Assembly: GCA_945898055.1 (NCBI GenBank)
Contig: CAMDGV010000021.1
Span: 1 to 61,531, forward strand
Source: Akkermansia muciniphila
GTDB taxonomy: Bacteria; Verrucomicrobiota; Verrucomicrobiia; Limisphaerales; UBA9464
Length of the DNA: 61,531 nucleotides
Reading direction: 5' to 3'
A program made the position numbers and the translations under genes. The stretch's first letter is position 1, and each line of letters begins with the position of its first letter. Below are positions 34,862 through 49,595 of the stretch, one piece after another. The notes under the pieces are model-generated. The model did no database searches. It was given only the letters and a program-made list of their open reading frames with translations, and was not told the origin of the DNA.

Positions 34862-37204
34862 ATGTTTTTAGACAAACCCCTTTATCGATGTCTTTTGAGT
34901 CAGGTGACTCGTTTTGTTTTTTTGTTTTTTTTCCTCGGTTGGACCTCGGGTACAGCCCTCGCAGTTGAATCGGGTTTGACGGTATCTTCGGTCGAGCAAG
35001 CTGAGTTTTTTGAAAGCAAAATTCGGCCCCTCTTGGTGAACGAATGTTATGGTTGTCACAGTAGCGATGCCAAAAAACTTAAGGGGCAACTCTATCTCGA
35101 TACCCGTGAGAAGATTTTGAAAGGGGGCGAGAGTGGTTCAGCCATCGTGCCAGGCAAGCCGGATGAAAGCCTCTTGATTCTTGCTGTCCGTTATAAGGAT
35201 GAAAAGACAGCGATGCCTCCCAAAAAACGGCTTTCAGACAGGCAAATTAATGATCTAGAAAAATGGGTTCGGATGGGCAGTCCTTGGCCGACTGAAAAAG
35301 GGGCGACAGCGGCTGCGCCGAGCGAAAAGGGAGGCTACAACTGGGAGAAATTCCGCGCTGAACATTGGGCCTTTCGGAGTGCGGTTAAGACACGACCGAT
35401 GTCCCTAAAAGAAGGGGCAAATGTGAGGAATCCAATTGATACCTTTGTCTTGAGCCGATTGGAGGCGGCGGGATTAAAACCAGCACCACCAGCGGACAAG
35501 CGAACCCTTATTCGACGCGCCTACTTGGACCTCATCGGGATACCGCCCACGCCCGAAGAGGTGTCTTCCTTTCTTCTTAATTCGGCACCTGATGCCTTTG
35601 ATCGAATTGTAGAAGCTCTCTTGGCCTCGCCCCATTACGGTGAACGATGGGGACGCCATTGGTTGGATGTGGCTCGGTATAGCGATGGGTTAGGAGGATT
35701 TCTCGATGGAGAACCGTTGCCAGAAGCCTGGCGTTTTCGCGATTGGGTTGTGTCGGCTCTCAATCAAGATATGCCCTACGATCAATTCGTGCGGGCCCAA
35801 ATTGCAGGCGATCTATTTTCGGAGACCGCAAATAGTAAGGTTGCGACCGGCTTCTTTGCTGTCGGGCCGACTTATATTTCAGATGGAGGAGATCCCGAAG
35901 CGGAGGCTCAAGCCCGAGCAGAAACCTTAGCGGATCGAGTGGATACTTTTTCCCGTGCCTTTCTGGGCCTCACGGTCGCTTGTGCGCGGTGTCACGATCA
36001 TAAGTTCGATCCGATCACCGCACGCGATTACTACGCTCTAGCTGGGATTTTTGATAATACGAAAACTGGCCTCTTTCCCATTGCGCCAGCGGGAGTGGTT
36101 GAGGCGTTTGATAAAGCCCAGAAAGCGATTCAGAATCAGGAGAAATTGGTTAAAGCAGCTGAAGCAGATCCGAAGTTAAAAGATCGGGTACCGGAGTTAA
36201 AGGCGGAGCGGGAGAGATTGAGGAAAAGTTCCCCTCCAGATTACCCCAAAGCGCATATGCTAAGAGAGAATAGTAATCGTGATTTACCCGTGGCTATTCG
36301 GGGGGATTTACGCAAGCCAGGCGAACCGGCACCTCGGCGTTTCTTGCAAATTTTAGCAGGAGAATCACCGGTCATTTTTAGTCAAGGCAGCGGGCGGCGC
36401 CAACTTGCCGAGGCGGTTACAGATCCCTCTACGATTTTGACGGCTCGGGTCTTGGTGAATCGAGTTTGGAAACATCATTTTGGGCAGGCACTGGTCCGTA
36501 CCCCAAGTAATTTTGGCGTTCTCGGTGAAGTTCCGACCCACCCTGATTTACTGGAATGGTTGGCAAACAGCTTGGTAGAAGATGGATGGTCCCTGAAAAG
36601 TCTCCATCGTAAAATAGTGCTCTCGACGACATGGCAGATGAGCAGTCATTATTCTTCTGCCGCCTTTGCGATGGATGGCGAAAATCGTCTGCTATGGAGA
36701 ATGAATCCGCGTAAACTGGAAGTTGAGTCGTTGCGCGACAGTCTTCTGGCTGTGACTGGAGAATTGGATCGTGGCTTGGGTGGTAAGTCTCTTGATCAGA
36801 TGCTCGAAACCCATCGACGCACTGTGTACAGCACGGTCAGCCGTAACGGCGATCGTTTTGTTTCTGATGAATTCCTCAGGCTTTTTGATTTTCCCACTCC
36901 TCGGTCTACGAGTGAATCCCGCTCGGTGAGTACAATTCCTCAACAGTATCTTTTTATGATGAACAGCGCCTTTATGAGTGATCGAGCCAAGGCACTTGCG
37001 GAGCGTCTTCAGCGGGAGATTGCCGACGATCGAGGGCGTATTGAGCGGGCGTACTTAATTCTGTATTCACGTCTACCTCTCGCCGAGGAAGTGACACTTG
37101 CCTTGGCCTTTCTAGGTGCTCGGATCAATGCGGGTGCGCAATCAACCTGGCAATCGTATGCGCAAGTGTTACTCAGTGCTCACGAGTTTCAACAAATCCG
37201 GTAA
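34862..37204 (+). CDS. Exported PSD1 protein with planctomycete cytochrome c, DUF1549 and DUF1553 domains (pair 1)
   Basis: 780 residues. A hydrophobic N-terminus (about 10-35) is a signal peptide. The planctomycete cytochrome-c-like domain follows with the heme-type motif CYGCH at residues 62-66 and MPPKKRLSD near 120. DUF1549 covers about 175-390, with YGERWGRHWLDVARYSD and CARCHDHKFDPI near 372. DUF1553 covers about 490-760, with VNRVWKHHFGQALV and TPSNFG. Biochemical function is not established; the heme motif suggests redox chemistry outside the inner membrane. A Tat-exported DUF1501 protein follows 10 bp later, the usual partner. Confidence 0.9.
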   Translation: MFLDKPLYRCLLSQVTRFVFLFFFLGWTSGTALAVESGLTVSSVEQAEFFESKIRPLLVNECYGCHSSDAKKLKGQLYLDTREKILKGGESGSAIVPGKPDESLLILAVRYKDEKTAMPPKKRLSDRQINDLEKWVRMGSPWPTEKGATAAAPSEKGGYNWEKFRAEHWAFRSAVKTRPMSLKEGANVRNPIDTFVLSRLEAAGLKPAPPADKRTLIRRAYLDLIGIPPTPEEVSSFLLNSAPDAFDRIVEALLASPHYGERWGRHWLDVARYSDGLGGFLDGEPLPEAWRFRDWVVSALNQDMPYDQFVRAQIAGDLFSETANSKVATGFFAVGPTYISDGGDPEAEAQARAETLADRVDTFSRAFLGLTVACARCHDHKFDPITARDYYALAGIFDNTKTGLFPIAPAGVVEAFDKAQKAIQNQEKLVKAAEADPKLKDRVPELKAERERLRKSSPPDYPKAHMLRENSNRDLPVAIRGDLRKPGEPAPRRFLQILAGESPVIFSQGSGRRQLAEAVTDPSTILTARVLVNRVWKHHFGQALVRTPSNFGVLGEVPTHPDLLEWLANSLVEDGWSLKSLHRKIVLSTTWQMSSHYSSAAFAMDGENRLLWRMNPRKLEVESLRDSLLAVTGELDRGLGGKSLDQMLETHRRTVYSTVSRNGDRFVSDEFLRLFDFPTPRSTSESRSVSTIPQQYLFMMNSAFMSDRAKALAERLQREIADDRGRIERAYLILYSRLPLAEEVTLALAFLGARINAGAQSTWQSYAQVLLSAHEFQQIR

Positions 37205-37214
37205 TTCTATTCCT

Positions 37215-38654
37215 ATGTTTTTTCGACAACATGAAGCCGCTTTCCGGAGAGCCTCAAGGCTAAGTTCGAGGCGCGATTTTCTTGGTCACCTTGGGGCTGG
37301 GATGGGGATCATCGGCTTGGCTGGGCTACTCGGTCAGGCTGATGCTAGCGATCTGGGAGCGGGTGCATCGCTTTTAACGAAACGGCCCCATTTTATCCCA
37401 AGAGCCAAACGGGTTATTCAACTATTTATGCCGGGAGGGCCTTCGCAGGTAGATACCTTTGATTACAAGCCTCAGTTGGCTAAGCATGCCGGGAAGCGAC
37501 CCGAATTGGTGGATCGTAAAAGTTTGCGCAATACCAAAAACGGATTAATGCCTTCACCTTTTGGGTTTCAGCAATACGGACAGTCGGGGAAGTGGGTCAG
37601 TGATATTTTCCCCAAGGTGGCACACTGCGTTGACGACATCAGTTTCATCCATTCAATGCATACAGATATCCCCGAGCATGCTGGAGCGATGATGATGATG
37701 AATGTGGGGGCGTTACAACCGAATCGCCCGAGCTTGGGTTCGTGGCTGGTTTATGGTCTCGGAACGGAAAATCAGAATCTACCGGGCTTTGTCGCAATGT
37801 CCCCTCGAGCGCAACCCCGTTGCACGCTCGCAAATTGGGGGAATGCCTTCCTTCCGGGCGTCTATGCCGGTAGCTATGTCAATATTGCTGAGATGAAACC
37901 AGACGCGGTGATGCGCGATTTAAAGAACCGGAAACTTTCCACAGGGGATCAGCGGCATCAATTGGATCTCTTGGCGCAGCTTAATCAAAAGCACTTGTCT
38001 CGAATGGAACGAGATCAGGATCTGGAAGCAGGAATTGCGGCAATGGAGATGGCTTTCCGAATGCAGTTTTCGGTGCCGGAGGTGTTCGATATTAGTCGGG
38101 AATCCCAAGCCACCCGCGATCTGTATGGCGAGAGTGAATTTGCCAAAGGATGTTTGCTGGCCCGACGACTTATCGAGCAGGGAGTGAGGGTCGTTCAGTT
38201 ATCGTTATCGATCGATGGTTACGATATCGCATGGGATACTGGTCACGAAAATATTGTCGATGGCCATGCCAAGTTAGCAAAGGCCTGTGATCAAGGCATC
38301 GCCGCTTTGATTCATGATCTCAAAGCGCGTGGTTTATTTGAGGATACACTCCTTGTTTGGGGCGGAGAATTCGGACGAGCGCCCACCTCTGAAGGGGCCA
38401 AGGGTCGCGATCACGATCACTATGGATACACGAACTGGTTGGCAGGTGGTGGCGTTAAAGCCGGTTTTAGCTATGGGGCAACTGACGAGTTCGGATGCGC
38501 TGCGGTAGAAGACCGGGTTCACGTGCATGATCTGCACGCTACGATTTTGCATTTAATGGGATTAGATCACGAAAAACTGACCTACCGATATTCGGGGCGT
38601 GATTATCGACTGACCGATGTGTCGGGAAATGTGGTGCGTGGCATTCTCTCCTGA
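37215..38654 (+). CDS. Tat-exported DUF1501 (sulfatase-like fold) protein (pair 1)
   Basis: 479 residues from the ATG at 37215; an upstream open extension lies within the PSD1 gene. A twin-arginine signal, SSRRDFLGHLGAGMG, is near residue 20. DUF1501 markers are RVIQLFMPGGPSQVDTFD near 65, EHAGAMMMMN, LLVWGGEFGRAPTSEG near 380 and GRDHDHYGYTNWLAGGG. The fold relates to alkaline-phosphatase-type sulfatases, but the enzymatic role is unknown. It is 10 bp after the PSD1 gene and almost certainly co-transcribed. Tat export suggests folding or cofactor loading in the cytoplasm. Confidence 0.9.
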   Translation: MFFRQHEAAFRRASRLSSRRDFLGHLGAGMGIIGLAGLLGQADASDLGAGASLLTKRPHFIPRAKRVIQLFMPGGPSQVDTFDYKPQLAKHAGKRPELVDRKSLRNTKNGLMPSPFGFQQYGQSGKWVSDIFPKVAHCVDDISFIHSMHTDIPEHAGAMMMMNVGALQPNRPSLGSWLVYGLGTENQNLPGFVAMSPRAQPRCTLANWGNAFLPGVYAGSYVNIAEMKPDAVMRDLKNRKLSTGDQRHQLDLLAQLNQKHLSRMERDQDLEAGIAAMEMAFRMQFSVPEVFDISRESQATRDLYGESEFAKGCLLARRLIEQGVRVVQLSLSIDGYDIAWDTGHENIVDGHAKLAKACDQGIAALIHDLKARGLFEDTLLVWGGEFGRAPTSEGAKGRDHDHYGYTNWLAGGGVKAGFSYGATDEFGCAAVEDRVHVHDLHATILHLMGLDHEKLTYRYSGRDYRLTDVSGNVVRGILS

Positions 38655-38721: not shown

Positions 38722-39597
38722 TTAATGTAGGGATAAAAGGAGCCGAAAGCCGATATAATCGCCCTTCACTCCGCTAGACATCGTGCCTCGCGCGGCCGAG
38801 CGGCAACGTCTGTCTCCATAGAGCCAATTGCCGCCCCGAACACATTTTGAATCGATAGACTCTGAGCCGACGGGATCGATGACGGAGTTAGTTGTGTAGG
38901 CAATATAACCGTCACGACACCATTCCGCAGCGCTACCGTGCATATCGTATAGGCCCCAGTCATTGGGTTTCTTGGAGCCAACCGGATGCGATTTGCCCTT
39001 GGAATTACCCTCGAGCCAAGCCATCTCATCCAAGTTTCCAGCGTAAGCCCCAACCGTGCGGGCACGACAAGCATATTCCCACTGAGCCTCTGTCGGTAAT
39101 GACCAACGACAACCTACCGGAAGAATTCCTTGTTCGCGATGGAGGGTGGTCAGCGTGTCGCAAAATTTTAAGATCTCTTTCCAATTAACTTGGTTTACTG
39201 CGAGATCAAGGCCTTTACCGTGACTGGGATTAGTCCCCATTACTTTCTCCCAAAGTGACTGAGGGCATTCGGTTTCAGCGAGGAAAAAGCCGTGCTTCAA
39301 TGTAACTTGATGCTGGATCTCATCTGTATCTCGGTAAGGTTCCAAGACCGGGCTACCCATTATAAAGTGGCCCGAAGGAATCCAACGGAGAGCGATTCGA
39401 TTCGTTCCCACTGTTAAGAAAAAAGAGTCGCCGGCGGTCAGTGAACCTTCGGCCTGTCGTGCCTTCTGAAGAATCGGTGCAACGGACATCGGACGCGCCT
39501 GCGGTATCGGTACGTCCAAAGCAGGTTCTCGACCGTAGCAAATGGCGATGAGAAGGCTGAAAATCAAAAGTCGGGCAGGGGCTTTAGTGTAGAACAT
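38722..39597 (-). CDS. Exported formylglycine-generating-enzyme (SUMF1) family protein
   Basis: 291 residues from the ATG at 39595-39597. The longer open form would place the hydrophobic signal (LLIFSLLIAICYG) inside the chain. Visible SUMF1/FGE-sulfatase motifs are SGHFIMGSPVLEPYRD near 85, VNQVNWKEILKFCDTL, LPTEAQWEYACRA near 190, GLYDMHGSAAEWCRDGY near 225 and VRGGNWLYGDRRCRSAARG near 260. True FGEs activate sulfatases. Many bacterial relatives lack catalytic cysteines and serve other roles, and the cysteine pair cannot be judged safely here. It is transcribed opposite to its neighbours in the exported cluster. Confidence 0.85.
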   Translation of the reverse strand: MFYTKAPARLLIFSLLIAICYGREPALDVPIPQARPMSVAPILQKARQAEGSLTAGDSFFLTVGTNRIALRWIPSGHFIMGSPVLEPYRDTDEIQHQVTLKHGFFLAETECPQSLWEKVMGTNPSHGKGLDLAVNQVNWKEILKFCDTLTTLHREQGILPVGCRWSLPTEAQWEYACRARTVGAYAGNLDEMAWLEGNSKGKSHPVGSKKPNDWGLYDMHGSAAEWCRDGYIAYTTNSVIDPVGSESIDSKCVRGGNWLYGDRRCRSAARGTMSSGVKGDYIGFRLLLSLH

Positions 39598-40033
39598 AAT
39601 TGATTGGAAGGTTTCCCTGCCGCGTTCGCGAGGGTAAATCAAATTAAAGGCAGCACCTTGCACCACTCGCGCTTTGAACTCCAATCAAAGATCGTTGGAA
39701 AGCTCAGCGCATTTATGTTCAGGTCCGCAAAGATGGACCGCCGAAGTCGATGGGTAATTCTGGTATCGTCGACGAGCGGCGCTCCGTTTCCATCCACCGC
39801 GGTCGTCGGTTGATCGTGTTGCCCCGGTGAGCGTGGGGATGCACGAACGATTACGAGTGAACTTCTTGGACTTATCTCACTCGCAACAATGAGATCAGTC
39901 TCCTCCTCTGTTTCTTTACAGCGCTCTTAAATTTTTCGTCAAACACATCATTTCCTTACAAAGGTCGGGTCTTATCTTCTCTCATGACAGATCGAGCACT
40001 TGCCATTCGGCCGCTTCAACGACACCCCCAATT
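39598..40033. other. Gene-free stretch between the FGE-like and YHYH genes
   Basis: No convincing gene on either strand; short open frames here lack recognisable features. The two flanking genes are divergent, so both promoters should lie here. The right end carries the TGTATC repeats listed separately. Confidence 0.4.
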
Positions 40034-40090: not shown

Positions 40091-43000
40091 ATGAAAACCC
40101 TTCAATTACTCCTTGTGATCGCGGTCGGAGTCCAGACTTTGGAATCGACTAAGGCGCACGATTTAACCTCCGAAGAGGGAGTTGTTCCAGCGTGGTACAA
40201 TGCCCCCCAAGGAGTGGTTCACTCGAGCAGCACAATCGTCTCCGGAGACTCTGCATCGTGTGCGAAGGGAGTGCGGATGGCTGAATCCTTTTCTCCTTTC
40301 AAACCGAAGGTGCGTTACCATTGGGATACTCATTATTTTTATGAGGAGTCTGACGGACTGCCAGACACTTATTTGATGCCGAATCTCATGGTCGGCATTA
40401 CCGATTGGCAGCAACAGATTCCCCTGCCTACTTCTTATTTTGCTGGAACTTTGAATCCCGAAGGCAACCAAGGGTCACGCGGCTATCGTCAACCTAACTT
40501 ATGGAAATTGCCCTTGATTCCGATTCCTGCTGGAGTCAATAGCATCCCGATTTCAGCGGGTAATTTTCAACGCGGAGCTATCGCACTGGCCGTCAATGGA
40601 ATCCCTATTTTTAATCCTCGCAACAACCGAGGTGCGGATTCTTATGCGATTGGCGAACTCGATCAATATGGCGGTCATTGTGGGTTAGCCGACGACTACC
40701 ATTACCACATTGTTCCGGTCCATTTACAGAGTGTGTTGGGAACAGAAAAGCCCTTGGCTTGGGCCCTAGATGGCTACCCAATCTTCGGTTATACCGAACC
40801 TGATGGCACACCCCGTCAAGCACTTGATCCCGATGGAGGGCACGACACTGGCACTGATTGGGGTTACCATTATCACGCCATCGGCAGTACCGCAACCGGA
40901 CCTCAAAGTCCCTACATGATGAGTGCATTTCACGGCACGGTGGTTAACTTCGGAGGGCAAGTAGATCCTCAACCTGGGGCACAACCACTTCGCGCCTCAG
41001 GCACCGGCGGATACTTCGCTCAACCGCTTACCGGCGCCTCGATTATCGCCTTTAAGAATCCTGTCTCTTTGGCCACGAATTCTTCCGGAGACCTTGTTGA
41101 AGAGCTCAGCGGCACTCCCTCTAGCGATCAATATCTTCTGCGTTATAAAGTTGGCGCCGCTACTTATGACATCTGCTGGCGCTTCAATCGAAACGCCAAT
41201 CCCAAGACGTTGACCCTGACTTGGCGACTACCCAACAGCAATGCTCAGACGACTCTTTACAGTAGCACTAATAATCGCATCACCGCGTATCCCATGGCCG
41301 ATAACCGCCTCGTCAATTTGCCCGACACCGGCCAGACACTGCAGGTCAATACGGCCTTTGGCGAGGACTCGGACTACACCCTGCATCCCCCCTCTTTTAC
41401 TGATAATCAAAATGGCACGATCGCTGATAACGTTACTGGTTTAATTTGGCAGAAAACCGACAGCGGCGAAATGACCTGGGAAACGGCACTCCTCCACGCT
41501 GCTAGCCTCACCACTGGCGGCTATACGGACTGGCGGTTACCCACTCCCTCAGAGGCCTTCGGACTCTTAAACCACAGCAGTAAACCGGCGCTCAATCCAG
41601 CTTACTTCGACAGCGCTAGTGGAGGTTCACCTGAGTACTTGTGGACCAGCGATATCTATGGAAGCGACGCCACAAAAGTATGGGTAAGCAATTTGGGCGG
41701 AGGCCTAGGGCCACATCCGAAAGCTGAGACCCTCAGTGCCGGTGGTACGCATCGTTTTCATGCGCGCTACGTGCGTGGCTCGAAAGCCTCAAACGGTCAC
41801 AGCTATCACAATCACTGCGACGGCACCCTCACTGATCTTGACACTCAATTGATGTGGACACAGATGCCGAGCTCAAGTCTTTCTTGGACTTCCGCGCTGG
41901 CCTATGCTGAAGGATTGACTCTCGGCAATTACCACGACTGGCGATTGCCAAACGTGAAGGAACTTCAAACCTTGGTCGACTACACTTTGGCCACCGCGAC
42001 GACGACCAACGGTCTTCTACCGTGCCTGAATCGCACCCTTTTTCCGAACGCACCCGCGACGGCTTATTGGACCTCCACCTCGGTCCAGACTGCCGCACCC
42101 AGTCAGGCTTGGTTGGTTGAATTTGGCATAAATAACGCCGTGCCGGCAACCAGTGGTCCGAGTCGAACGGCCCAAGGCGTGATCAGCTACGAGGCTTACA
42201 GCGCCAACTATCCGGTTTTCGCCGTGCGCAGTGTGACTTCGAAAACGATTCAACCGTCTATCACCCAAGGTCGGGCCACAACGATAACCCCTAATCTTTA
42301 CCTGAAAGGTCAACGCGCTGCGGGAGTTGGAACCGTTACCGCAACGGATGGCACCCTCTGGACGGTGCCCTCCGCGACCCAATTCGCCAATGGGATCAAA
42401 GCAAGTGACCTTTATAATGAAGCCACAGGTGTCAGGCCAGCGACCATCAATGATACCGATCTTAGTTCGGTACCGATTGTAGAAATTGACGCCGACGGAG
42501 AATTAATCACCGGCTATCTCTTTGCTGACAATTACTTTGAACTGTATGTCAACGGCACCTTGGTGGGAGTCGACCCTGTTCCTTACACCGCTTTCAATTC
42601 CTGTGTGGTTCGTTTTCGAGCAAAACGTCCGATTACCTATGCGGTAAAATTGGTCGACTGGGAGGAAAATCTCGGACTCGGTACTGAGCTGAATGGAGGG
42701 AACCTCTTCCATCCTGGCGACGGCGGATTTATGGCCAGTTTCAGTGACGGAACCCGAACTGATGCTCATTGGAAGGCACAAAGCTTTTACATTTCTCCTC
42801 TCGATAATCCGCAACTTGTGATCGAGATGCCTGACGGTACTCACCTTTCTTCATCCGCATCTTTAACCCCTACCTTCGGGGCCAATAGCTTCGCGCTGCA
42901 CTATCCGGTACCGTTAGATTGGTTTGCAAAGAACTTCAATGACGCGGCATGGCCCCTCGCAACGACCTATAGTGAAACCGTGGTCGGGGCAGATAATAAA

Positions 43001-44527
43001 CCCGCGTATCAGAATTTTCCGAACCAATTCAGTAACAGCGGTGCGCAGTTCATCTGGTCTTCTAACCTCGTTCTGGATAATGAAATCATTGTTCGCTACA
43101 CAGGGCCCGCTCCTAGCACCCAGATTTCTGTTGAATACCCCACCGGCACTTCTCTCTCTGATGGCGTAAGTAAGGTCAAAATGGGTCGGATTGGGGTCGG
43201 TCTCGATCTCCTAAAAACTTTCACGATTCGCAATAAGGGGGCCAACCCTCTCCTGCTTTCCGGTGCAACGATCGAGGGAGAAGGTGCCGGTAACTTTACC
43301 CTCCTCGAATTCCCAGTTGGCAGTGTCGCCCCCGGTGACAGCACAACCGTAAGTGTAAAGTTTCAAGCCCCTCGGTCTGGCACCTTCACTGCCACCTTGC
43401 ATATCGTCAGCAGTGACACCTCGGTTGGCGCGGCGTTTGACCTCGGATTGGAAGGGGTCGCTTTTCTTTTGCCCCCGACCATTACCCATCTAACCACTTC
43501 GCCAAACACACCCACATTTATCGATACTGTCATCGTCTTGGCTCAGCTTAAGTCGACCACCGAAACACCCTCAAATCAGGTACAGTTAGTCTACAACAGC
43601 GGAGGACAAACGACAGGGATAGTCTTCACTGAAACCATGGCGAACGCCGCGGTCACAGGGTGGACTGGAACCGGCGCCAACAACCTCTGGACCGTGACCA
43701 GTCTAGGTACCCCAAACACCCTCAGGCAAACTGTGGCGGCAAACCATGGAACCGGTAATCCCTACGGTTTAGAATTCGACAAGGGAACCTCCCAACTCAT
43801 CGACAGTATGATCACCACGGCCAATGTCATTGATGCGTCGGGCACCTCGGGTACTGTCGAATTTTGGGTATCGGCAATGGATATGATTTCGCCTAATGGT
43901 TGGACCTTTCAAACCTCCATCGACGGAGGTAACACTTGGAGTACTCGCCTGAGTGAACTCACTGGCAGCAACCACGCTTTCCAACTATTTCACTACGACC
44001 TGACTACTTTCGAGCGGGTTAGCACGTTGAAGTTGCGGTTCCAGTTCGCTGGTTACAATGCGGTCGCACCGATTCGAGCTCCGAAGCTTTATCTCGATGA
44101 TATTAGGGTTAGTACGACTCACGGCGAATCCCCCGTCATTGTGACGATGGTCGATGATGGACTCCACGGAGACGGTCTGGCTGGCGACGGAATCTATGGT
44201 GCGGAAATTCCACAACTTCCTGCCGGAACACAGGTGAACTATCAGGTCACTGCGACCGATGCCAACGCAGGTGAATCCGTCTCGGTTATGGGACAAAGTT
44301 ATCAGGTCAGCAGTATCACTCCATCGCCCTATCTCAAGATCGACGCCTCAATTTCGAGTGGTGACCTACGTCTTAACTGGGACGCTCAAGCAGGATTAAT
44401 CTACTCAGTGTTGGGGTCGCAGGATCTGAAATCTTGGACCCCTCTCTTCGTGGGTCAAACCAATCGATGGACCGACTCCCTCGTCGTCGTTTCAATGCCC
44501 TTTCGTTTTTATCGGGTTACGCGCTAA
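40091..44527 (+). CDS. Giant exported multi-domain protein with YHYH and DUF1566 (Lcl) domains
   Basis: 1478 residues. The N-terminal helix (LQLLLVIAVGVQTLESTKAH) is a signal peptide. A YHYH domain covers about 140-290, with DDYHYHIVPVH near 202, ALDGYPIFGY, and WGYHYHAIGS near 256. Two DUF1566 domains follow (about 435-566 and 575-716), each with GLIWQK or LMWTQM and a DWRLP motif. A choice-of-anchor-D-like beta domain (about 1034-1126) with TIRNKGANPLLLSGA comes next, then a jelly-roll-like stretch with VEFWVSAMDM, a HGDGLAGDGIYGAEIP segment, and a C-terminal segment with FYRVTR. It is probably a surface or secreted binding protein. No anchor motif is evident, so it may be released. Function is unknown. 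Confidence 0.85.
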   Translation: MKTLQLLLVIAVGVQTLESTKAHDLTSEEGVVPAWYNAPQGVVHSSSTIVSGDSASCAKGVRMAESFSPFKPKVRYHWDTHYFYEESDGLPDTYLMPNLMVGITDWQQQIPLPTSYFAGTLNPEGNQGSRGYRQPNLWKLPLIPIPAGVNSIPISAGNFQRGAIALAVNGIPIFNPRNNRGADSYAIGELDQYGGHCGLADDYHYHIVPVHLQSVLGTEKPLAWALDGYPIFGYTEPDGTPRQALDPDGGHDTGTDWGYHYHAIGSTATGPQSPYMMSAFHGTVVNFGGQVDPQPGAQPLRASGTGGYFAQPLTGASIIAFKNPVSLATNSSGDLVEELSGTPSSDQYLLRYKVGAATYDICWRFNRNANPKTLTLTWRLPNSNAQTTLYSSTNNRITAYPMADNRLVNLPDTGQTLQVNTAFGEDSDYTLHPPSFTDNQNGTIADNVTGLIWQKTDSGEMTWETALLHAASLTTGGYTDWRLPTPSEAFGLLNHSSKPALNPAYFDSASGGSPEYLWTSDIYGSDATKVWVSNLGGGLGPHPKAETLSAGGTHRFHARYVRGSKASNGHSYHNHCDGTLTDLDTQLMWTQMPSSSLSWTSALAYAEGLTLGNYHDWRLPNVKELQTLVDYTLATATTTNGLLPCLNRTLFPNAPATAYWTSTSVQTAAPSQAWLVEFGINNAVPATSGPSRTAQGVISYEAYSANYPVFAVRSVTSKTIQPSITQGRATTITPNLYLKGQRAAGVGTVTATDGTLWTVPSATQFANGIKASDLYNEATGVRPATINDTDLSSVPIVEIDADGELITGYLFADNYFELYVNGTLVGVDPVPYTAFNSCVVRFRAKRPITYAVKLVDWEENLGLGTELNGGNLFHPGDGGFMASFSDGTRTDAHWKAQSFYISPLDNPQLVIEMPDGTHLSSSASLTPTFGANSFALHYPVPLDWFAKNFNDAAWPLATTYSETVVGADNKPAYQNFPNQFSNSGAQFIWSSNLVLDNEIIVRYTGPAPSTQISVEYPTGTSLSDGVSKVKMGRIGVGLDLLKTFTIRNKGANPLLLSGATIEGEGAGNFTLLEFPVGSVAPGDSTTVSVKFQAPRSGTFTATLHIVSSDTSVGAAFDLGLEGVAFLLPPTITHLTTSPNTPTFIDTVIVLAQLKSTTETPSNQVQLVYNSGGQTTGIVFTETMANAAVTGWTGTGANNLWTVTSLGTPNTLRQTVAANHGTGNPYGLEFDKGTSQLIDSMITTANVIDASGTSGTVEFWVSAMDMISPNGWTFQTSIDGGNTWSTRLSELTGSNHAFQLFHYDLTTFERVSTLKLRFQFAGYNAVAPIRAPKLYLDDIRVSTTHGESPVIVTMVDDGLHGDGLAGDGIYGAEIPQLPAGTQVNYQVTATDANAGESVSVMGQSYQVSSITPSPYLKIDASISSGDLRLNWDAQAGLIYSVLGSQDLKSWTPLFVGQTNRWTDSLVVVSMPFRFYRVTR

Positions 44528-44688: not shown

Positions 44689-45951
44689 ATGAATAATATG
44701 GGGCAAGTCACACCCCTTTGCTTTGCCTTTTTTATCTCGATATTTTGCGTGCTGCTCGTCCGGGCTGATGAGCCCAAGAATCATGATAAAGATGTTGTTT
44801 ATGATGAGGCAAAAGTGCCTCCGTATGATCTTCCTCCGTTATTGGTTTCCTCCGAAGGTAAACCGATCACGACGCCCGAGGAGTGGTTCACCCTGCGGCG
44901 GCCGCAGATTATGTCCCTCTTTGCCAACCTCGTTTATGGAAGTGTGCCCTCCCCCGAGACTCCGATTCGTACGACGATTGAAGTGGTAAAGACAGATCGT
45001 GAGTTCATGGATGGTAAAGCCACTCGCAAGGACGTTCGCATTCGATTTGAGAATACCAAAGGCTCCGCCGAAATGATGGTCTTGGTGTTTACCCCCAACG
45101 CTACCAAACAACCCGTCCCGGCTTTCCTGCTGCACAGCTTCGGTAATACCCGAGACGACAGTCACGACGTCCAGGCGGATCGTCGAGGGTTCCTCCGCAA
45201 CGGCATCCCACTCGGTGAGTTTCTTCAGCGCGGGTTTGGTTTTGTCGTAGTGTCGCAGGGGGCCTTAGTGGCGCACAACGAAGTCGAATTTCTAAAAGGT
45301 ATCCACCCCTTGTTTTATCGCACGGGACAAAGTTTTCCAAAAGCCAATGAATGGGGTTGTATCTCAGCGGTGTCGTGGTCCGCATCGCGGGCCATGGATT
45401 ATATCGAGACCGATCGCGGTATTGATGCCAAGCGCGTTGCAGTGATGGGGCATTCCAAGATGGGTAAGACGGCCCTCTGGACCGCCGCGCAAGATACACG
45501 GTTTGCCTTAGCTATTTCAGCCCAATCGGGTTGCGCTGGTGCGGCTTTGTGGAAACGAAATTATGGTGAAAATATGGAGAAAATGGTGACCCGTTTCCCC
45601 TATTGGCTTTGTCGAAATGCGTGGAAGTTCGTACGAAACGAAGACGATTTGCCAGTGGATCAACATATGTTGTTGGCCTGCATTGCTCCGCGACCGGTTT
45701 ATGTTCACAGTGGAGTCGATGATACTTGGGCGGATGCCCGTGGCGAGTACCTCTCCGCCTATCACGCCAGCGAGGTATATCGGTTGCTCGGAAAGAAAGG
45801 ACTCACTTCGGAAGCCTCACCGGCGGTCGGGGCGGCGATCATTCAATCTGAGGTTGGCTACCATAACCGAACCGGGGGTCATTCAATCGATCCGTTTGAT
45901 TGGCAGAAATTTCTCGAGTTCGCTGAGTTTCATCTAAAAGCAAAACTGTAG
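44689..45951 (+). CDS. Exported CE15-like glucuronoyl esterase / alpha-beta hydrolase
   Basis: 420 residues. A hydrophobic start (PLCFAFFISIFCVLLVRADE) is a signal peptide. The alpha/beta-hydrolase core has the nucleophile elbow GHSKMGKTALW near 253 and the catalytic-type His in TGGHSIDPFDW near 397. An acidic region HSGVDDTWADARGEYLSAYH lies between, and an acid-triad member could sit here. The GHSxxGK form and the WKRNYGENM region resemble carbohydrate esterase family 15, which cleaves ester links between glucuronic acid and lignin or other groups. It sits between the giant YHYH gene and PSD1 pair 2, all on the plus strand. Substrate is inferred only. Confidence 0.75.
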   Translation: MNNMGQVTPLCFAFFISIFCVLLVRADEPKNHDKDVVYDEAKVPPYDLPPLLVSSEGKPITTPEEWFTLRRPQIMSLFANLVYGSVPSPETPIRTTIEVVKTDREFMDGKATRKDVRIRFENTKGSAEMMVLVFTPNATKQPVPAFLLHSFGNTRDDSHDVQADRRGFLRNGIPLGEFLQRGFGFVVVSQGALVAHNEVEFLKGIHPLFYRTGQSFPKANEWGCISAVSWSASRAMDYIETDRGIDAKRVAVMGHSKMGKTALWTAAQDTRFALAISAQSGCAGAALWKRNYGENMEKMVTRFPYWLCRNAWKFVRNEDDLPVDQHMLLACIAPRPVYVHSGVDDTWADARGEYLSAYHASEVYRLLGKKGLTSEASPAVGAAIIQSEVGYHNRTGGHSIDPFDWQKFLEFAEFHLKAKL

Positions 45952-45978: not shown

Positions 45979-48171
45979 GTGAAATCGTTCTGCTTTAGGC
46001 TTTTTCTGGGACTCTGGCTCGGAGTTAGCCGTTCTGGGCAAGCGGTGGAATTCGTGCGCGATATCCAACCGATTTTTCGGGCGCACTGCGATAAGTGTCA
46101 TGGACTGAGCAAAGAAAAGGGGGGCCTTTCACTCGCCACTCGAACTCGAGCTCTAAAGGGAGGCGACGCTGGCGCGGTTCTCCTTTCTAAAAAGGCCTCC
46201 ATGAGCCCTTTGATTCAACGCGTCACCTCAGCAGTGGCCGACAAAAGAATGCCGCCTGAAGGCGAGCACCTGAGTTCAGCAGAAATCGAACTCTTACGTG
46301 CTTGGATCGACGAGGGGGTACCTTGGCCGGAGAGTGCCGAGGATCAAGATCCTCGAGGGTCCAGTGAGGCTGTGCATTGGTCATTTGGGGCACTACGAAA
46401 ACCTGCTCTGCCCGCCGTCGAGAGTGCTTGGATCACCTCGCCCATCGACACGTTTATTTTTGACAAGATGAAAAAGGCCGGGTTGAGGCCATCGCCCCCA
46501 GCAACCAAGGAGGCACTGCTTCGCCGCGTCTCTTTTGATCTCACTGGATTGCCCCCTCTTCCTGAGCAAATCCAATCTTTTGTCCGTTCTGATCGATCGG
46601 ATGCCTTCGAGCGAGAGGTTGATCGCCTTCTGGCATCACCTGCTTATGGCGAACGGTGGGCGCGTCATTGGTTAGATGTTGTACGCTATGCGGATTCTGG
46701 GGGTTACGAGACGGATATTTTTTACGAGCAAGCCTGGCGTTACCGCGACTATGTCATTCGCAGCTTTAATGATGATAAACCGTACGACCGTTTTTTAATG
46801 GAACAGGTAGGTGGAGACGAACTCTGGCCCGAGCAAGCCACAGTGATGCAGGAAGCTGTCTCGGTCTGGACCTTAGGGGAATGGCCCAACGCGCTGGATG
46901 CTTACCCCGAGAGGTTGGAATACGTGCGACGCACGGATCAGGTAAGTACCCTGAGCGAAATGGCGCTGGGTTTGACGGTGGGTTGCGCGAATTGTCACAA
47001 TCACAAGTACGATCCGATTACCCATCGTGATTACTTCGGCCTAGAAGCTATTTTTGCTGCTAGTGAAACGTGGAATCAGAACACCCGATCCAAGGCTTGG
47101 GGACGAGGTGAGCGAAATGCTTACCGAGCCCTGCGCCATGCAGAAAAGCCAGTGCCTATTTATCTTTTAACGCGTGGTGACCTAACCCAACCCAATGAGC
47201 TCATTGCCCCAGCTTTGCCGGCATTTTTACCGGGTGGAGGCCCCTTGGTGGGTGGGTTAGGTGAAAACAAATTGCGCCGTGCTCAACTCGCACGTTGGCT
47301 GGCCTCACCCCAGAATCCCCTTCCAGCAAGAGTCATAGCTAACCGAGTTTGGCAATGGCACTTTGGTCAGGCGCTGGCAACGACACCGAATGATCTCGGC
47401 ACCCATGGATCACCACCTTCCCATCGGGAATTGCTGGATTGGTTGGCATCCGAATTAGTTGAGACTGGATGGAGATTAAAGAGATTGCATCGCTTCATTG
47501 TGTTATCGTCGACCTACCAACAGTCGGTGGTCCGCGATCCAGAATCGCTCACTTTGGATCCACAGAATCAGTGGCTCTCAGGTTTTCCACGCCGTCGTTT
47601 AGAAGCCGAAGAGGTCTGGGATCATTTGCACGCAACCGCAGGGACCTTGGACCAAAAACAGTTTGGACGCCCCTTCGTACCTCGGCTGTCGGTGGAAGAA
47701 TTACAGAGCATGTACGATCTTGAAAACAAACGGGATCTGAAATGGCCTGTCACCCAGGAGCAGGAAGGTCGTGCCCTTTATATTTTAAATCGCCGTTCGT
47801 TCCGCTTCCCGTTCTTTGAAGCATTCGACCCTCCCAATACCGCCCTCAGTTGCCCGCAGCGTCAGACGACGACCGTACCAACCCAAGCGTTGACTCTCTT
47901 AAATAATCGGTTGGTTAGAGAACAGTCACGTGCCATGGCAGAACGTCTTCGACGAGAAACTGGAACCGATACGAACTTGTTTGTGAAGCGTGCTTGGTTG
48001 CTAGCCTATAGCCGTGCAGCGACTTTCTCTGAGCTCCGATTGGCCCTCGATTTTATCGTCGCGGCGGAAGCCGCACACCTTCAATCGGGTCCAATCGAGG
48101 CACGCCTCTTAGCCTTGAGTGAGTTTTGCCTTGGCCTCATCAACACAGCTGAATTTATCTATTCTAATTGA
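45979..48171 (+). CDS. Exported PSD1 protein with planctomycete cytochrome c, DUF1549 and DUF1553 domains (pair 2)
   Basis: 730 residues starting at GTG 45979, with AAGAGGA as a ribosome-binding site 10 bp upstream. A signal peptide covers about 1-22. The heme-type motif CDKCH is at residues 37-41, and MPPEGEHLSSAE near 95. DUF1549 has YGERWARHWLDVVRYAD, and NCHNHKYDPITHRDYFG near 335. DUF1553 has NRVWQWHFGQALATTPND and a late TTVPTQALTLLNNRL. It is shorter than the pair 1 protein and lacks its inserted charged segment. It is followed by a DUF1501 gene 11 bp after its stop. Function is unknown. Confidence 0.9.
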   Translation: MKSFCFRLFLGLWLGVSRSGQAVEFVRDIQPIFRAHCDKCHGLSKEKGGLSLATRTRALKGGDAGAVLLSKKASMSPLIQRVTSAVADKRMPPEGEHLSSAEIELLRAWIDEGVPWPESAEDQDPRGSSEAVHWSFGALRKPALPAVESAWITSPIDTFIFDKMKKAGLRPSPPATKEALLRRVSFDLTGLPPLPEQIQSFVRSDRSDAFEREVDRLLASPAYGERWARHWLDVVRYADSGGYETDIFYEQAWRYRDYVIRSFNDDKPYDRFLMEQVGGDELWPEQATVMQEAVSVWTLGEWPNALDAYPERLEYVRRTDQVSTLSEMALGLTVGCANCHNHKYDPITHRDYFGLEAIFAASETWNQNTRSKAWGRGERNAYRALRHAEKPVPIYLLTRGDLTQPNELIAPALPAFLPGGGPLVGGLGENKLRRAQLARWLASPQNPLPARVIANRVWQWHFGQALATTPNDLGTHGSPPSHRELLDWLASELVETGWRLKRLHRFIVLSSTYQQSVVRDPESLTLDPQNQWLSGFPRRRLEAEEVWDHLHATAGTLDQKQFGRPFVPRLSVEELQSMYDLENKRDLKWPVTQEQEGRALYILNRRSFRFPFFEAFDPPNTALSCPQRQTTTVPTQALTLLNNRLVREQSRAMAERLRRETGTDTNLFVKRAWLLAYSRAATFSELRLALDFIVAAEAAHLQSGPIEARLLALSEFCLGLINTAEFIYSN

Positions 48172-48182
48172 GGACCCTGAAG

Positions 48183-49595
48183 ATGAATCACTCCCCTCAC
48201 TTTTCACGAAGAGACTTTTTAAGTCGCAGCGGCATGGGTATTGGCTCACTCGCGTTTCTAGACTTGATGAGCCGTGAAGCCGCTGCTGCAGGCAATCCGC
48301 TTCGACCCGCTGGGGCGCACCTTGTTCCGCGAGCGCGTGCGGTTATCTCATTGTTTATGCACGGTGGCCCGAGTCAGATCGACACCTTTGATCCCAAACC
48401 GTTGCTGGCCAAGTATACCGGCCAAACCTTACCCGCAAGTTTCGCAAATTTAAATTTGGAGTTTACCAAGACGAGCACTGCGAAGGTGCTCGCCAGCAAA
48501 CGTACCTTTCGTAGATGCGGAAAATCAGGTCTCGAAATGTCTGATATCTTTGAGCACTTGCCGACGGTCGCAGATGAAATGGCGGTGATTCGGAGTTGCC
48601 ATCATACAGAATTCAACCATGCCCCAGCTCTCTACTTAGCTCATTCCGGTGCACGCTTGATGGGACGTCCGAGCCTCGGCTCATGGGCAATTTATGGGCT
48701 AGGCTCCGGATCACAAAATCTTCCAGGCTACGTCGTCATGCGTGATGGTCCCCTGAAGGGAGGGCCGGCGACCTACAGCAACGGGTTTCTACCGGCAGTT
48801 TATTCGGCCACTGAATTAAACCTAAGCGGGACTCCGATTCTTTACCTCAATAGACCAGAGACAGTCAGCGGTGCTGACCAGCGTCGGGTGCTCGACTTCT
48901 CACAGAAACTCAATCATCAGTATCTCGCTGAGCAAAACGATGACAGCCATCTTTCGGCACGAATCGCCGCTTATGAACTGGCTTATCGTATGCAATCCGC
49001 GGCTCCCGAGGCGGTGGATTTGAATCAAGAGCCCGCTAGCGTGAAGGCGCTCTACGGTTTGGATAACGAGTTGACTCGGTCGTTTGGAACCCAATGTCTC
49101 AACGCCCGCCGGTTGGTGGAGCGGGGCGTCCGGTTCGTTCAACTCTACCACGGCGGCGGGGGCGACGGCTGGGATACCCACGGAGCCAATGATGCTAAAC
49201 ACCTCCGCAATGGTAAACAAATCGACAAGCCCATTGCTGGATTGATCACTGATTTGAAAGCACGTGGCTTACTCGATTCCACGCTCATTCTCTGGGGAGG
49301 CGAATTTGGGCGAACGCCCACCTCTGAGGGATCCGATGGCCGAGATCACAGTCCTTACGGGTATTCGGTATGGATGGCGGGTGGCGGCATCAAAGGGGGG
49401 ACGGTCTACGGCGCAACCGATGATTTCGGCTTCAATGCGCTCGAAAATCCGGTTCAAGTCCGCGACCTACACGCTACGATTTTACATCTACTCGGACTGC
49501 AGCACGATAAACTCACGTTTTACTTTCAAGGCCTCCAACAAAGGCTCGCCCAAGTCGATGGGGAGAGTCGGGTCATTAAAGAAATTTTAGCCTAA
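48183..49595 (+). CDS. Tat-exported DUF1501 (sulfatase-like fold) protein (pair 2)
   Basis: 470 residues from the ATG at 48183. The frame is open to a TTG at 48168, but the ATG form places the twin-arginine motif HFSRRDFLSRSGMG near residue 6, as expected. Markers are RAVISLFMHGGPSQIDTFD near 55, VIRSCHHTEFNHAPALYL near 138, LILWGGEFGRTPTSEGSDG near 370 and GRDHSPYGYSVWMAGGG. It resembles the pair 1 protein but differs in the early helical part. Co-transcribed with the preceding PSD1 gene. A small hairpin with T-run follows. Confidence 0.9.
   Translation: MNHSPHFSRRDFLSRSGMGIGSLAFLDLMSREAAAAGNPLRPAGAHLVPRARAVISLFMHGGPSQIDTFDPKPLLAKYTGQTLPASFANLNLEFTKTSTAKVLASKRTFRRCGKSGLEMSDIFEHLPTVADEMAVIRSCHHTEFNHAPALYLAHSGARLMGRPSLGSWAIYGLGSGSQNLPGYVVMRDGPLKGGPATYSNGFLPAVYSATELNLSGTPILYLNRPETVSGADQRRVLDFSQKLNHQYLAEQNDDSHLSARIAAYELAYRMQSAAPEAVDLNQEPASVKALYGLDNELTRSFGTQCLNARRLVERGVRFVQLYHGGGGDGWDTHGANDAKHLRNGKQIDKPIAGLITDLKARGLLDSTLILWGGEFGRTPTSEGSDGRDHSPYGYSVWMAGGGIKGGTVYGATDDFGFNALENPVQVRDLHATILHLLGLQHDKLTFYFQGLQQRLAQVDGESRVIKEILA

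Follow-up and report, generated by a model that had tools for sequence, protein, structure and literature searches.

A mosaic YHYH–Lcl protein with a conserved Asp/His cluster and a histidine behind its predicted signal peptide

What could be the role of a protein that joins a YHYH domain to two DUF1566 units and a row of beta-rich modules, and is it as singular as it first appears? The gene lies at positions 40091-44527 (+) of the window, by which we mean the whole stretch of 61,531 nucleotides analysed here (contig CAMDGV010000021.1 of assembly GCA_945898055.1, deposited as Akkermansia muciniphila), and is a single unbroken open reading frame (ORF) of 1478 residues with an ATG start. Its own genome (4.63 Mb, 136 contigs) carries two YHYH genes. 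We find that the gene belongs to a recurrent group of YHYH–Lcl proteins, and we propose that its product is a secreted, glycan-docked metalloprotein with an N-terminal histidine, the YHYH–Lcl unit acting as a platform for coupled enzymes and the window copy being the platform alone; we consider this account as likely to be right as wrong.

The ORF list, Pfam and NCBIfam bear out the composition given in an earlier note on this DNA, namely one protein with a YHYH domain, two DUF1566 units and beta modules, and resolve the order of its modules as YHYH-Lcl-Lcl-MID-AnchD-Cre-End (Table 1). The two stretches of Lcl_C (PF07603, the same family as DUF1566) score 147.7 bits against a Pfam gathering cut-off of 34.9. 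The YHYH match (PF14240, residues 160-273) exceeds its cut-off by less, with 29.5 against 25 bits, as do a HYDIN/CFA65-type immunoglobulin (Ig) domain at residues 1029-1109 (31.2 against 25.5) and DUF1573 (27.0 against 26.1), and two NCBIfam models, choice-of-anchor D at 1026-1111 and choice-of-anchor X at 1351-1380, are each above cut-off. We attribute the weak YHYH score to membership in a divergent subfamily, here named class B, whose proteins reach 31-49 bits with the Pfam model whereas canonical YHYH proteins reach 226-248. The two separate YHYH motifs, previously placed near residues 202 and 256, begin at 203 and 259, and two features had been missed: the MID module (717-1009) and a histidine, H23, directly behind the predicted signal peptide. 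A phmmer search (E<=1) returned no Protein Data Bank (PDB) relative of the whole protein.

The architecture is more than a chance assembly, for it is found again in other genomes, with modules mostly 50-70% identical. Compared in full length with the genomes of 145 relatives, the protein proves to be a mosaic. The best relative (L063, genome G028) reads YHYH-Lcl-Lcl-AnchD-Cre-End without residues 717-1009, and the MID is 62-65% identical in same-genus proteins, where it is fused to a YHYH domain without Lcl, and elsewhere forms a stand-alone gene of ~250 residues close to a YHYH gene. When contigs were scanned with an alignment of class-B YHYH domains, at least 527 relatives came up, the best 77 loci of which were kept; being ranked by similarity, these loci yield fractions that are not population frequencies. 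YHYH and two Lcl units share one ORF in 38 of the 77, and together with L132, which has one Lcl unit, they make up the 39 YHYH–Lcl ORFs considered below. One of them, L110 (9578-14248, 1557 residues), has a module order identical to that of the window protein, MID included, and L120 adds a sulfatase and a phosphoesterase to it. The combination can thus no longer be called unusual. By database label 37/39 YHYH–Lcl ORFs are from Verrucomicrobiota, with L129 filed as 'bacterium' and L109 as Phycisphaera, although labels of metagenome-assembled genomes are not taxonomic proof. A quickly built tree (42 proteins) requires 8 or more changes in the sulfatase state and 2 or more in MID; on it the window row groups weakly with L110 and L120 (SH-like approximate likelihood ratio test 87, for an open group of 9 rows). 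In one class-B YHYH gene (L085, 7423-8502, minus strand, genome G046) an in-frame TAG interrupts the reading frame.

The statement that no known function covers the combination holds for the whole protein. Many proteins of the same architecture exist and none was found characterised in the literature searched; nor was any study of YHYH–Lcl proteins found in the open-access literature, which omits most subscription journals. One relative of a module, the Legionella Lcl adhesin, has been characterised (PMC11162425; papers are cited here by PMC accession). We see the window protein as a variant form of secreted YHYH proteins and of metalloproteins with an N-terminal histidine; it is not a one-off, and no described system was found to which it belongs.

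The first line of evidence for a metalloprotein is a cluster of acidic and histidine residues in the YHYH domain. D191, H196, H204, H206, D227, D238 and D246 are invariant in all 55 rows compared (42 class-B, 10 canonical and 3 class-C), and the first YHYH motif is invariant throughout the same rows. H211, H251 and H262 mark class B: one of the ten canonical rows has H251 and H262 is not kept outside class B, while H260 is kept in 6/10 canonical and 0/3 class-C rows. The suggestion that both motifs, with the histidine clusters near 202 and 256, could bind metal is supported by the alignments for the first motif; the second belongs mainly to class B. The invariant residues agree with a prediction, made for phage YHYH from a histidine triad plus an aspartate and from fusions to tail and lectin domains, that the domain has a Zn site and acts as a hydrolase (PMC7824862). 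A metal site in the YHYH domain is likely on these sequence grounds, and we think it probable that the protein binds metal. Copper as that metal is plausible, at somewhat short of an even chance, and an enzymatic role for the domain is a shade more doubtful still.

The second line is the histidine behind the signal peptide. An [AGS]H pair stands at the predicted signal-peptide end in 95 of 102 distinct segments of class B, among them that of the window protein; duplicates and ORFs that lack a hydrophobic stretch do not enter this count. Position -1 is Ala in 88 of these 95, the next positions vary (commonest +1 residue 31/95), and the distance from the histidine to the YHYH domain is variable, with a median of 47 residues. 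At matched settings (first 120 residues) the pair occurs in 88/96 class-B proteins versus 71/714 other ORFs of the loci, and the strict motif xA/H (a slash marking the predicted cleavage) in 76/90 versus 20/604 control ORFs. A slightly stricter pattern retrieves 91/105 class-B proteins, 7/13 canonical YHYH proteins and 6/6 HupE proteins, against 3/60 sulfatases, 2/30 phosphoesterases and 0/19 MbnP. Six of 40 YHYH–Lcl ORFs were not scored as matches: L113 and L137 are duplicate segments that do show A/H, L069 and L138 are truncated at contig ends, L114 has no clear hydrophobic stretch and L119 is a genuine miss. In the window protein itself, cleavage predicted between A22 and H23 would make histidine the first mature residue.

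Some known copper and nickel proteins likewise begin, once exported, with a histidine. A histidine kept in this position has been proposed as a mark of secreted metalloproteins, occurring in 79% of DUF4198 and 65% of DUF6702 proteins and also in HupE/UreJ-2 'anglerases' (PMC12537917); the word YHYH does not occur in that paper in an open-access text search. The histidine brace (PMC10952591) and YcnI (PMC8424229) provide the copper background. Of 81 named class-B ORFs (duplicate sequences dropped), 4 have a HupE/UreJ_2 gene no more than 3 kb away, a linkage that gives weak support as evidence for a metal. On a Deinococcus plasmid (NZ_CP092194.1; L253, 4803-6879) a HupE/UreJ permease gene starts 4 bases behind a YHYH gene; this HupE shows SASA/HLM, and its YHYH partner looks like a lipoprotein without the N-terminal histidine. 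The YHYH protein of an alphaproteobacterial plasmid reads GSA/HDI.

YHYH–Lcl proteins also keep company with enzymes. A sulfatase domain lies on the same chain in 14/39 YHYH–Lcl ORFs (which reach ~3700 residues) and a metallophosphoesterase domain in 10/39; Pfam backs the sulfatase in L128 and both enzyme types in L110, where they form the following gene and are not on the YHYH chain. A multicopper-oxidase core is fused in 2/39 (L122, L130) and adjoins the gene in L136, L146 and L161, the L136 oxidase being nearest to CueO yet under that family's cut-off (288.8 vs 525). As an earlier multicopper-oxidase seed also held an Ig-like part, the 10/81 obtained with it was inflated, and oxidase-core counts are used instead. 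Around class-B YHYH genes without Lcl (n=47), sulfatases reach 18.2 per 100 kb within 2 kb versus 0-3.7 farther away, with 38 on the same strand and 3 on the opposite one, while the density of DUF1501 is about flat with distance. The profiles for these neighbours (sulfatase, phosphoesterase, kinase, regulator) were made from the loci themselves, so that the counts are descriptive, with distance decay and the flat DUF1501 as controls. Since sulfatases occur in 145/145 relatives' genomes, their presence alone means little, and the point rests on the distance decay and the fusions. By eye, many stand-alone neighbours have a CTPSR-like sulfatase nucleophile and several fused copies a CSVTR- or CSITR-like one, without the proline. 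One 1583-residue ORF (L186, 10311-15059) has two YHYH domains and a sulfatase in a single chain; YHYH proteins in L157 (9710-12799, with EF-hands) and L149 have a PEBP (YbhB/YbcL-like) domain, and L036 resembles them by eye. The PhoD-like character of the phosphoesterases makes a phosphate-starvation system conceivable.

Sensor-kinase and regulator neighbours form a further group, with 57/61 on the opposite strand when the YHYH–Lcl and class-B-without-Lcl groups are summed. The divergent promoter regions between regulator and YHYH gene show, by eye, TTTAC/TGACA-like or TTAAT-like repeats in L103, L116, L126, L147, L159 and others.

Copper genes proper accompany other YHYH classes. MbnP (PF20243) occurs at 55 places in 54/145 genomes, and a non-B YHYH gene lies within 3 kb of 32/55 of these places, with ~0.11 expected at random in 4.5-Mb genomes; all 32 pairs are on the same strand, with MbnP downstream in 31. 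For this count the YHYH rows were split by eye into 85 non-B and 33 B, the partial match G034:C86 being put in non-B, and G017:C199 (a 75-base fragment) and G072:C40:4922-5035 (the second piece of a counted gene) were left out. The MbnP gene copies read are fusions of MbnP to a MauG/MbnH-type di-haem domain, above Pfam cut-offs; one fusion scored with the stricter NCBIfam models fell below theirs. In the literature the MbnP/MbnH pair and its CorA/MopE relatives are discussed as copper-associated, the link of MbnP to copper being unproven in 2013 (PMC3621798, PMC3912023). The second YHYH gene of the window's genome (L185, 8007-11592, G000:C36) is of class C and is directly followed on the same strand by such an MbnP–MauG/MbnH-type fusion gene. 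A large ORF (~1040-1100 residues) adjoins several of the class-C YHYH genes for which no MbnP match was seen nearby (L198, L205, L221, L224, L226, L232 and others), and in L192 (7556-9515) a canonical YHYH gene adjoins an ABC-3 (Zn/Mn-type) permease gene.

Structure prediction adds few clues to ancestry. An AlphaFold2 (AF2) model of residues 24-434 has a mean predicted local distance difference test score (pLDDT) of 84.9 and a predicted template modelling score of 0.85, with low values at model residues 1-28 and 383-411. Searched unsplit, not as single domains, it matched nothing convincing among solved structures (best Foldseek PDB E 0.18, best VIA Z 5.0), and no convincing fold of lytic polysaccharide monooxygenases (LPMOs) or CopC among the rows listed in either set of results; the Z 5.0 match spans 49 residues of the beta tail amid many rows resembling fatty-acid-binding proteins, and we draw no homology from it. 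At the sequence level, neither the class-B profile nor the one canonical YHYH protein used as query found a match in the PDB. The absence of a fold match in this modelling is not proof of a new fold. The MID model is poor (pLDDT 67.4); its top Foldseek rows are a Pleurotus ostreatus lectin (E 0.02) and then glycosidase domains, none below 0.001, and the best PDB match of its profile is rhamnosidase B at E 0.23. As a lead only, MID may be jelly-roll-like and possibly carbohydrate-binding. With a profile of the window-type Lcl units no chain in the PDB was reached at E<=0.1, so their kinship to Legionella Lcl is remote. An origin from phages or their tails was considered and dropped: tblastn of the class-B domain against 50,697 phage records and a search of IMG/VR with MID both came back without a match, and a BFVD match (I3UL96, E 8.8e-9) shows just that some viral protein has a similar fold.

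Assembled into a mechanism, these observations suggest that the product would be exported and end up secreted, held at the cell surface or in a matrix, with signal peptidase leaving H23 as the first residue. H23, the invariant D/H residues, or both would hold a transition metal, for which copper is the best guess. By analogy to Legionella Lcl, which binds sulphated glycosaminoglycans and fucoidan (PMC11162425), the two Lcl units and the putative beta-sandwich of MID may dock the protein on extracellular glycans, probably anionic or sulphated, with the Ig-like and C-terminal modules as presumed spacers and anchors. In relatives, sulfatase, metallophosphoesterase and multicopper oxidase may cooperate with this assembly; as they are placed on the same chain or next door, the YHYH–Lcl unit would be a metal-binding, glycan-targeting platform. 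Verrucomicrobiota have been reported as consumers of sulphated sugars (PMC8857213). The window protein bears no sulfatase, phosphoesterase or copper-oxidase partner, and none was seen adjoining its gene.

Several observations weigh against this platform account. Signal peptides were called by a simple hydrophobic-stretch rule rather than by SignalP, and with the slightly stricter pattern only 5/50 class-C YHYH proteins show the N-terminal histidine. Stand-alone sulfatases are not enriched around YHYH–Lcl genes (3.2 per 100 kb within 2 kb versus 1.4-5.9 farther), and the partners of class B are more often sulfatase or phosphoesterase than any copper gene. Of the 55 MbnP places, none has a class-B YHYH within 3 kb and one has it within 10 kb, so that the strongest copper link belongs to the other YHYH classes, and 0/134 HupE places in the relatives' genomes share a contig with YHYH. 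The kinases rank a heavy-metal sensor family first but stay below its cut-off (249 and 281 vs 292.6), the regulator beside a class-C gene is nearest to the heavy-metal family and also below cut-off (224 vs 279), the one beside a class-B gene is nearer to OmpR/CpxR, and the ten window neighbours scanned include no two-component genes. Finally, the variable linker behind H23 and the low confidence of residues 24-51 in a model that excludes H23 do not speak for a histidine brace built into the domain.

The strongest competitor takes YHYH for a metal (Zn)-dependent hydrolase, to which Lcl and MID bring a substrate polymer and for which sulfatase and phosphoesterase are co-enzymes. It follows the printed prediction for phage YHYH, whose type of residues is invariant here, and it suits the fusion or linkage of YHYH to both enzymes; we nevertheless regard it as unlikely, for no solved protein gave a convincing match to its fold, no test of the prediction was seen in the literature, and alone it leaves the class-B N-terminal histidine and the class-C MbnP–MauG operons unexplained. 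Bolder, and somewhat less plausible again, is the idea that class B comprises unrecognised secreted copper proteins in which a copper site formed by the first residue and YHYH captures copper or oxidises, delivered by lectins to sulphated glycans in the manner of an LPMO but on an unrelated fold. That the protein is a plain adhesin, its Lcl, MID and Ig-like modules binding surfaces and YHYH being a stable head with at most a structural metal, seems improbable: Lcl is known as an adhesin domain, and Lcl-Lcl pairs occur with Cre modules in long ORFs where no YHYH was seen (L095, L097, L098 and L099 among them), but the invariant D/H cluster and the N-terminal histidine are hard to account for, as is the linkage to enzymes and regulators. 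Very unlikely is a remnant, doing little, of a giant YHYH–Lcl–sulfatase–phosphoesterase protein: giant relatives do have both enzymes, the window's own genome shows no match (E<=0.001) to the phosphoesterase half of the partner protein of L110 and the branch of the window row is long (0.40 vs median 0.094), yet the conserved YHYH residues and H23 are intact in an unbroken ORF, L110 with the same architecture keeps the enzymes as the following gene, and the repeated changes of sulfatase state on the tree make absence common.

The platform account matters beyond this gene. YHYH, a domain without a tested role in the literature searched, is present in several bacterial phyla, and phages (PMC7824862) and diatom transcripts (PMC11992049) have been reported to contain it. 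It becomes testable here: class B combines a predicted mature N-terminal histidine, kept amid varying residues, with an unvarying cluster of D/H residues, and its members are time and again linked to sulfatases and phosphoesterases and, more rarely, to copper oxidases. Which metal it may bind, be it copper, zinc or nickel, bears on hundreds of proteins named only after a motif.

Table 1. Features of the YHYH–Lcl gene and its predicted product, in window coordinates.
Feature	Position	Strand	Basis
Whole gene, 1478 residues	40091..44527	+	ORF list, Pfam/NCBIfam; same architecture in L110 9578-14248
Predicted signal peptide, residues 1-22	40091..40156	+	Crude hydrophobicity rule, not SignalP
H23, His at predicted mature N-terminus (STKA/HDL)	40157..40159	+	Signal-peptide rule, class-B pattern
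Linker, residues 24-52	40160..40246	+	Low confidence: pLDDT <50, model residues 1-28
YHYH domain, class B, residues 53-325	40247..41065	+	PF14240, alignments, AF2 model
First YHYH motif, residues 203-206	40697..40708	+	Invariant in 55 rows compared
Second YHYH motif, residues 259-262	40865..40876	+	Mainly class-B feature
Beta-rich tail behind YHYH, residues 326-430	41066..41380	+	Common to YHYH–Lcl proteins; model
Lcl_C/DUF1566 unit A, residues 431-566	41381..41788	+	Pfam
Lcl_C/DUF1566 unit B, residues 575-682	41813..42136	+	Pfam
MID module, residues 717-1009, without Pfam family	42239..43117	+	Comparison with relatives, model, Foldseek
Choice-of-anchor D/HYDIN-type Ig, residues 1016-1115	43136..43435	+	Pfam, NCBIfam
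'Cre' region with choice-of-anchor X, residues 1120-1400	43448..44290	+	NCBIfam, relatives
C-terminal 'End' module, residues 1400-1478	44288..44524	+	Relatives

Among the ten neighbours scanned in the window, pairs of DUF1549/DUF1553 and DUF1501 genes flank the locus on both sides (34862-38654 and 45979-49595). A glucuronoyl-esterase-like gene follows downstream at 44689-45951. Upstream, and divergent from the YHYH–Lcl gene, lies a gene for an FGE/SUMF1-domain protein (38722-39684, minus strand), in which what we take to be the first active-site cysteine of the FGE motif seems to be replaced.

Set against known systems, the window protein differs from the MbnP–MbnH and CorA–MopE pairs: non-B YHYH genes are operon-like partners of MbnP–MauG fusions, whereas class B, to which the window protein belongs, has no MbnP partner within 3 kb. 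It shares with the Legionella Lcl adhesin two Lcl_C units above cut-off, but has neither a collagen family (Pfam E<=1) nor visible collagen-like repeats in the translation. Among YHYH proteins (PF14240), for which no characterised member was found in the literature searched, it passes the Pfam cut-off and has the residues invariant across classes, and it stands apart as a class-B protein with a second YHYH motif, an N-terminal histidine and Lcl and MID modules. While class B departs from the N-terminal-His metalloproteins (LPMO, CopC, DUF4198, DUF6702, anglerases, YcnI) in the variable linker behind the first histidine and in that no fold match to them was seen, it resembles them in the conserved histidine behind a predicted signal peptide, and YHYH relatives do so in some metal-type gene neighbours.

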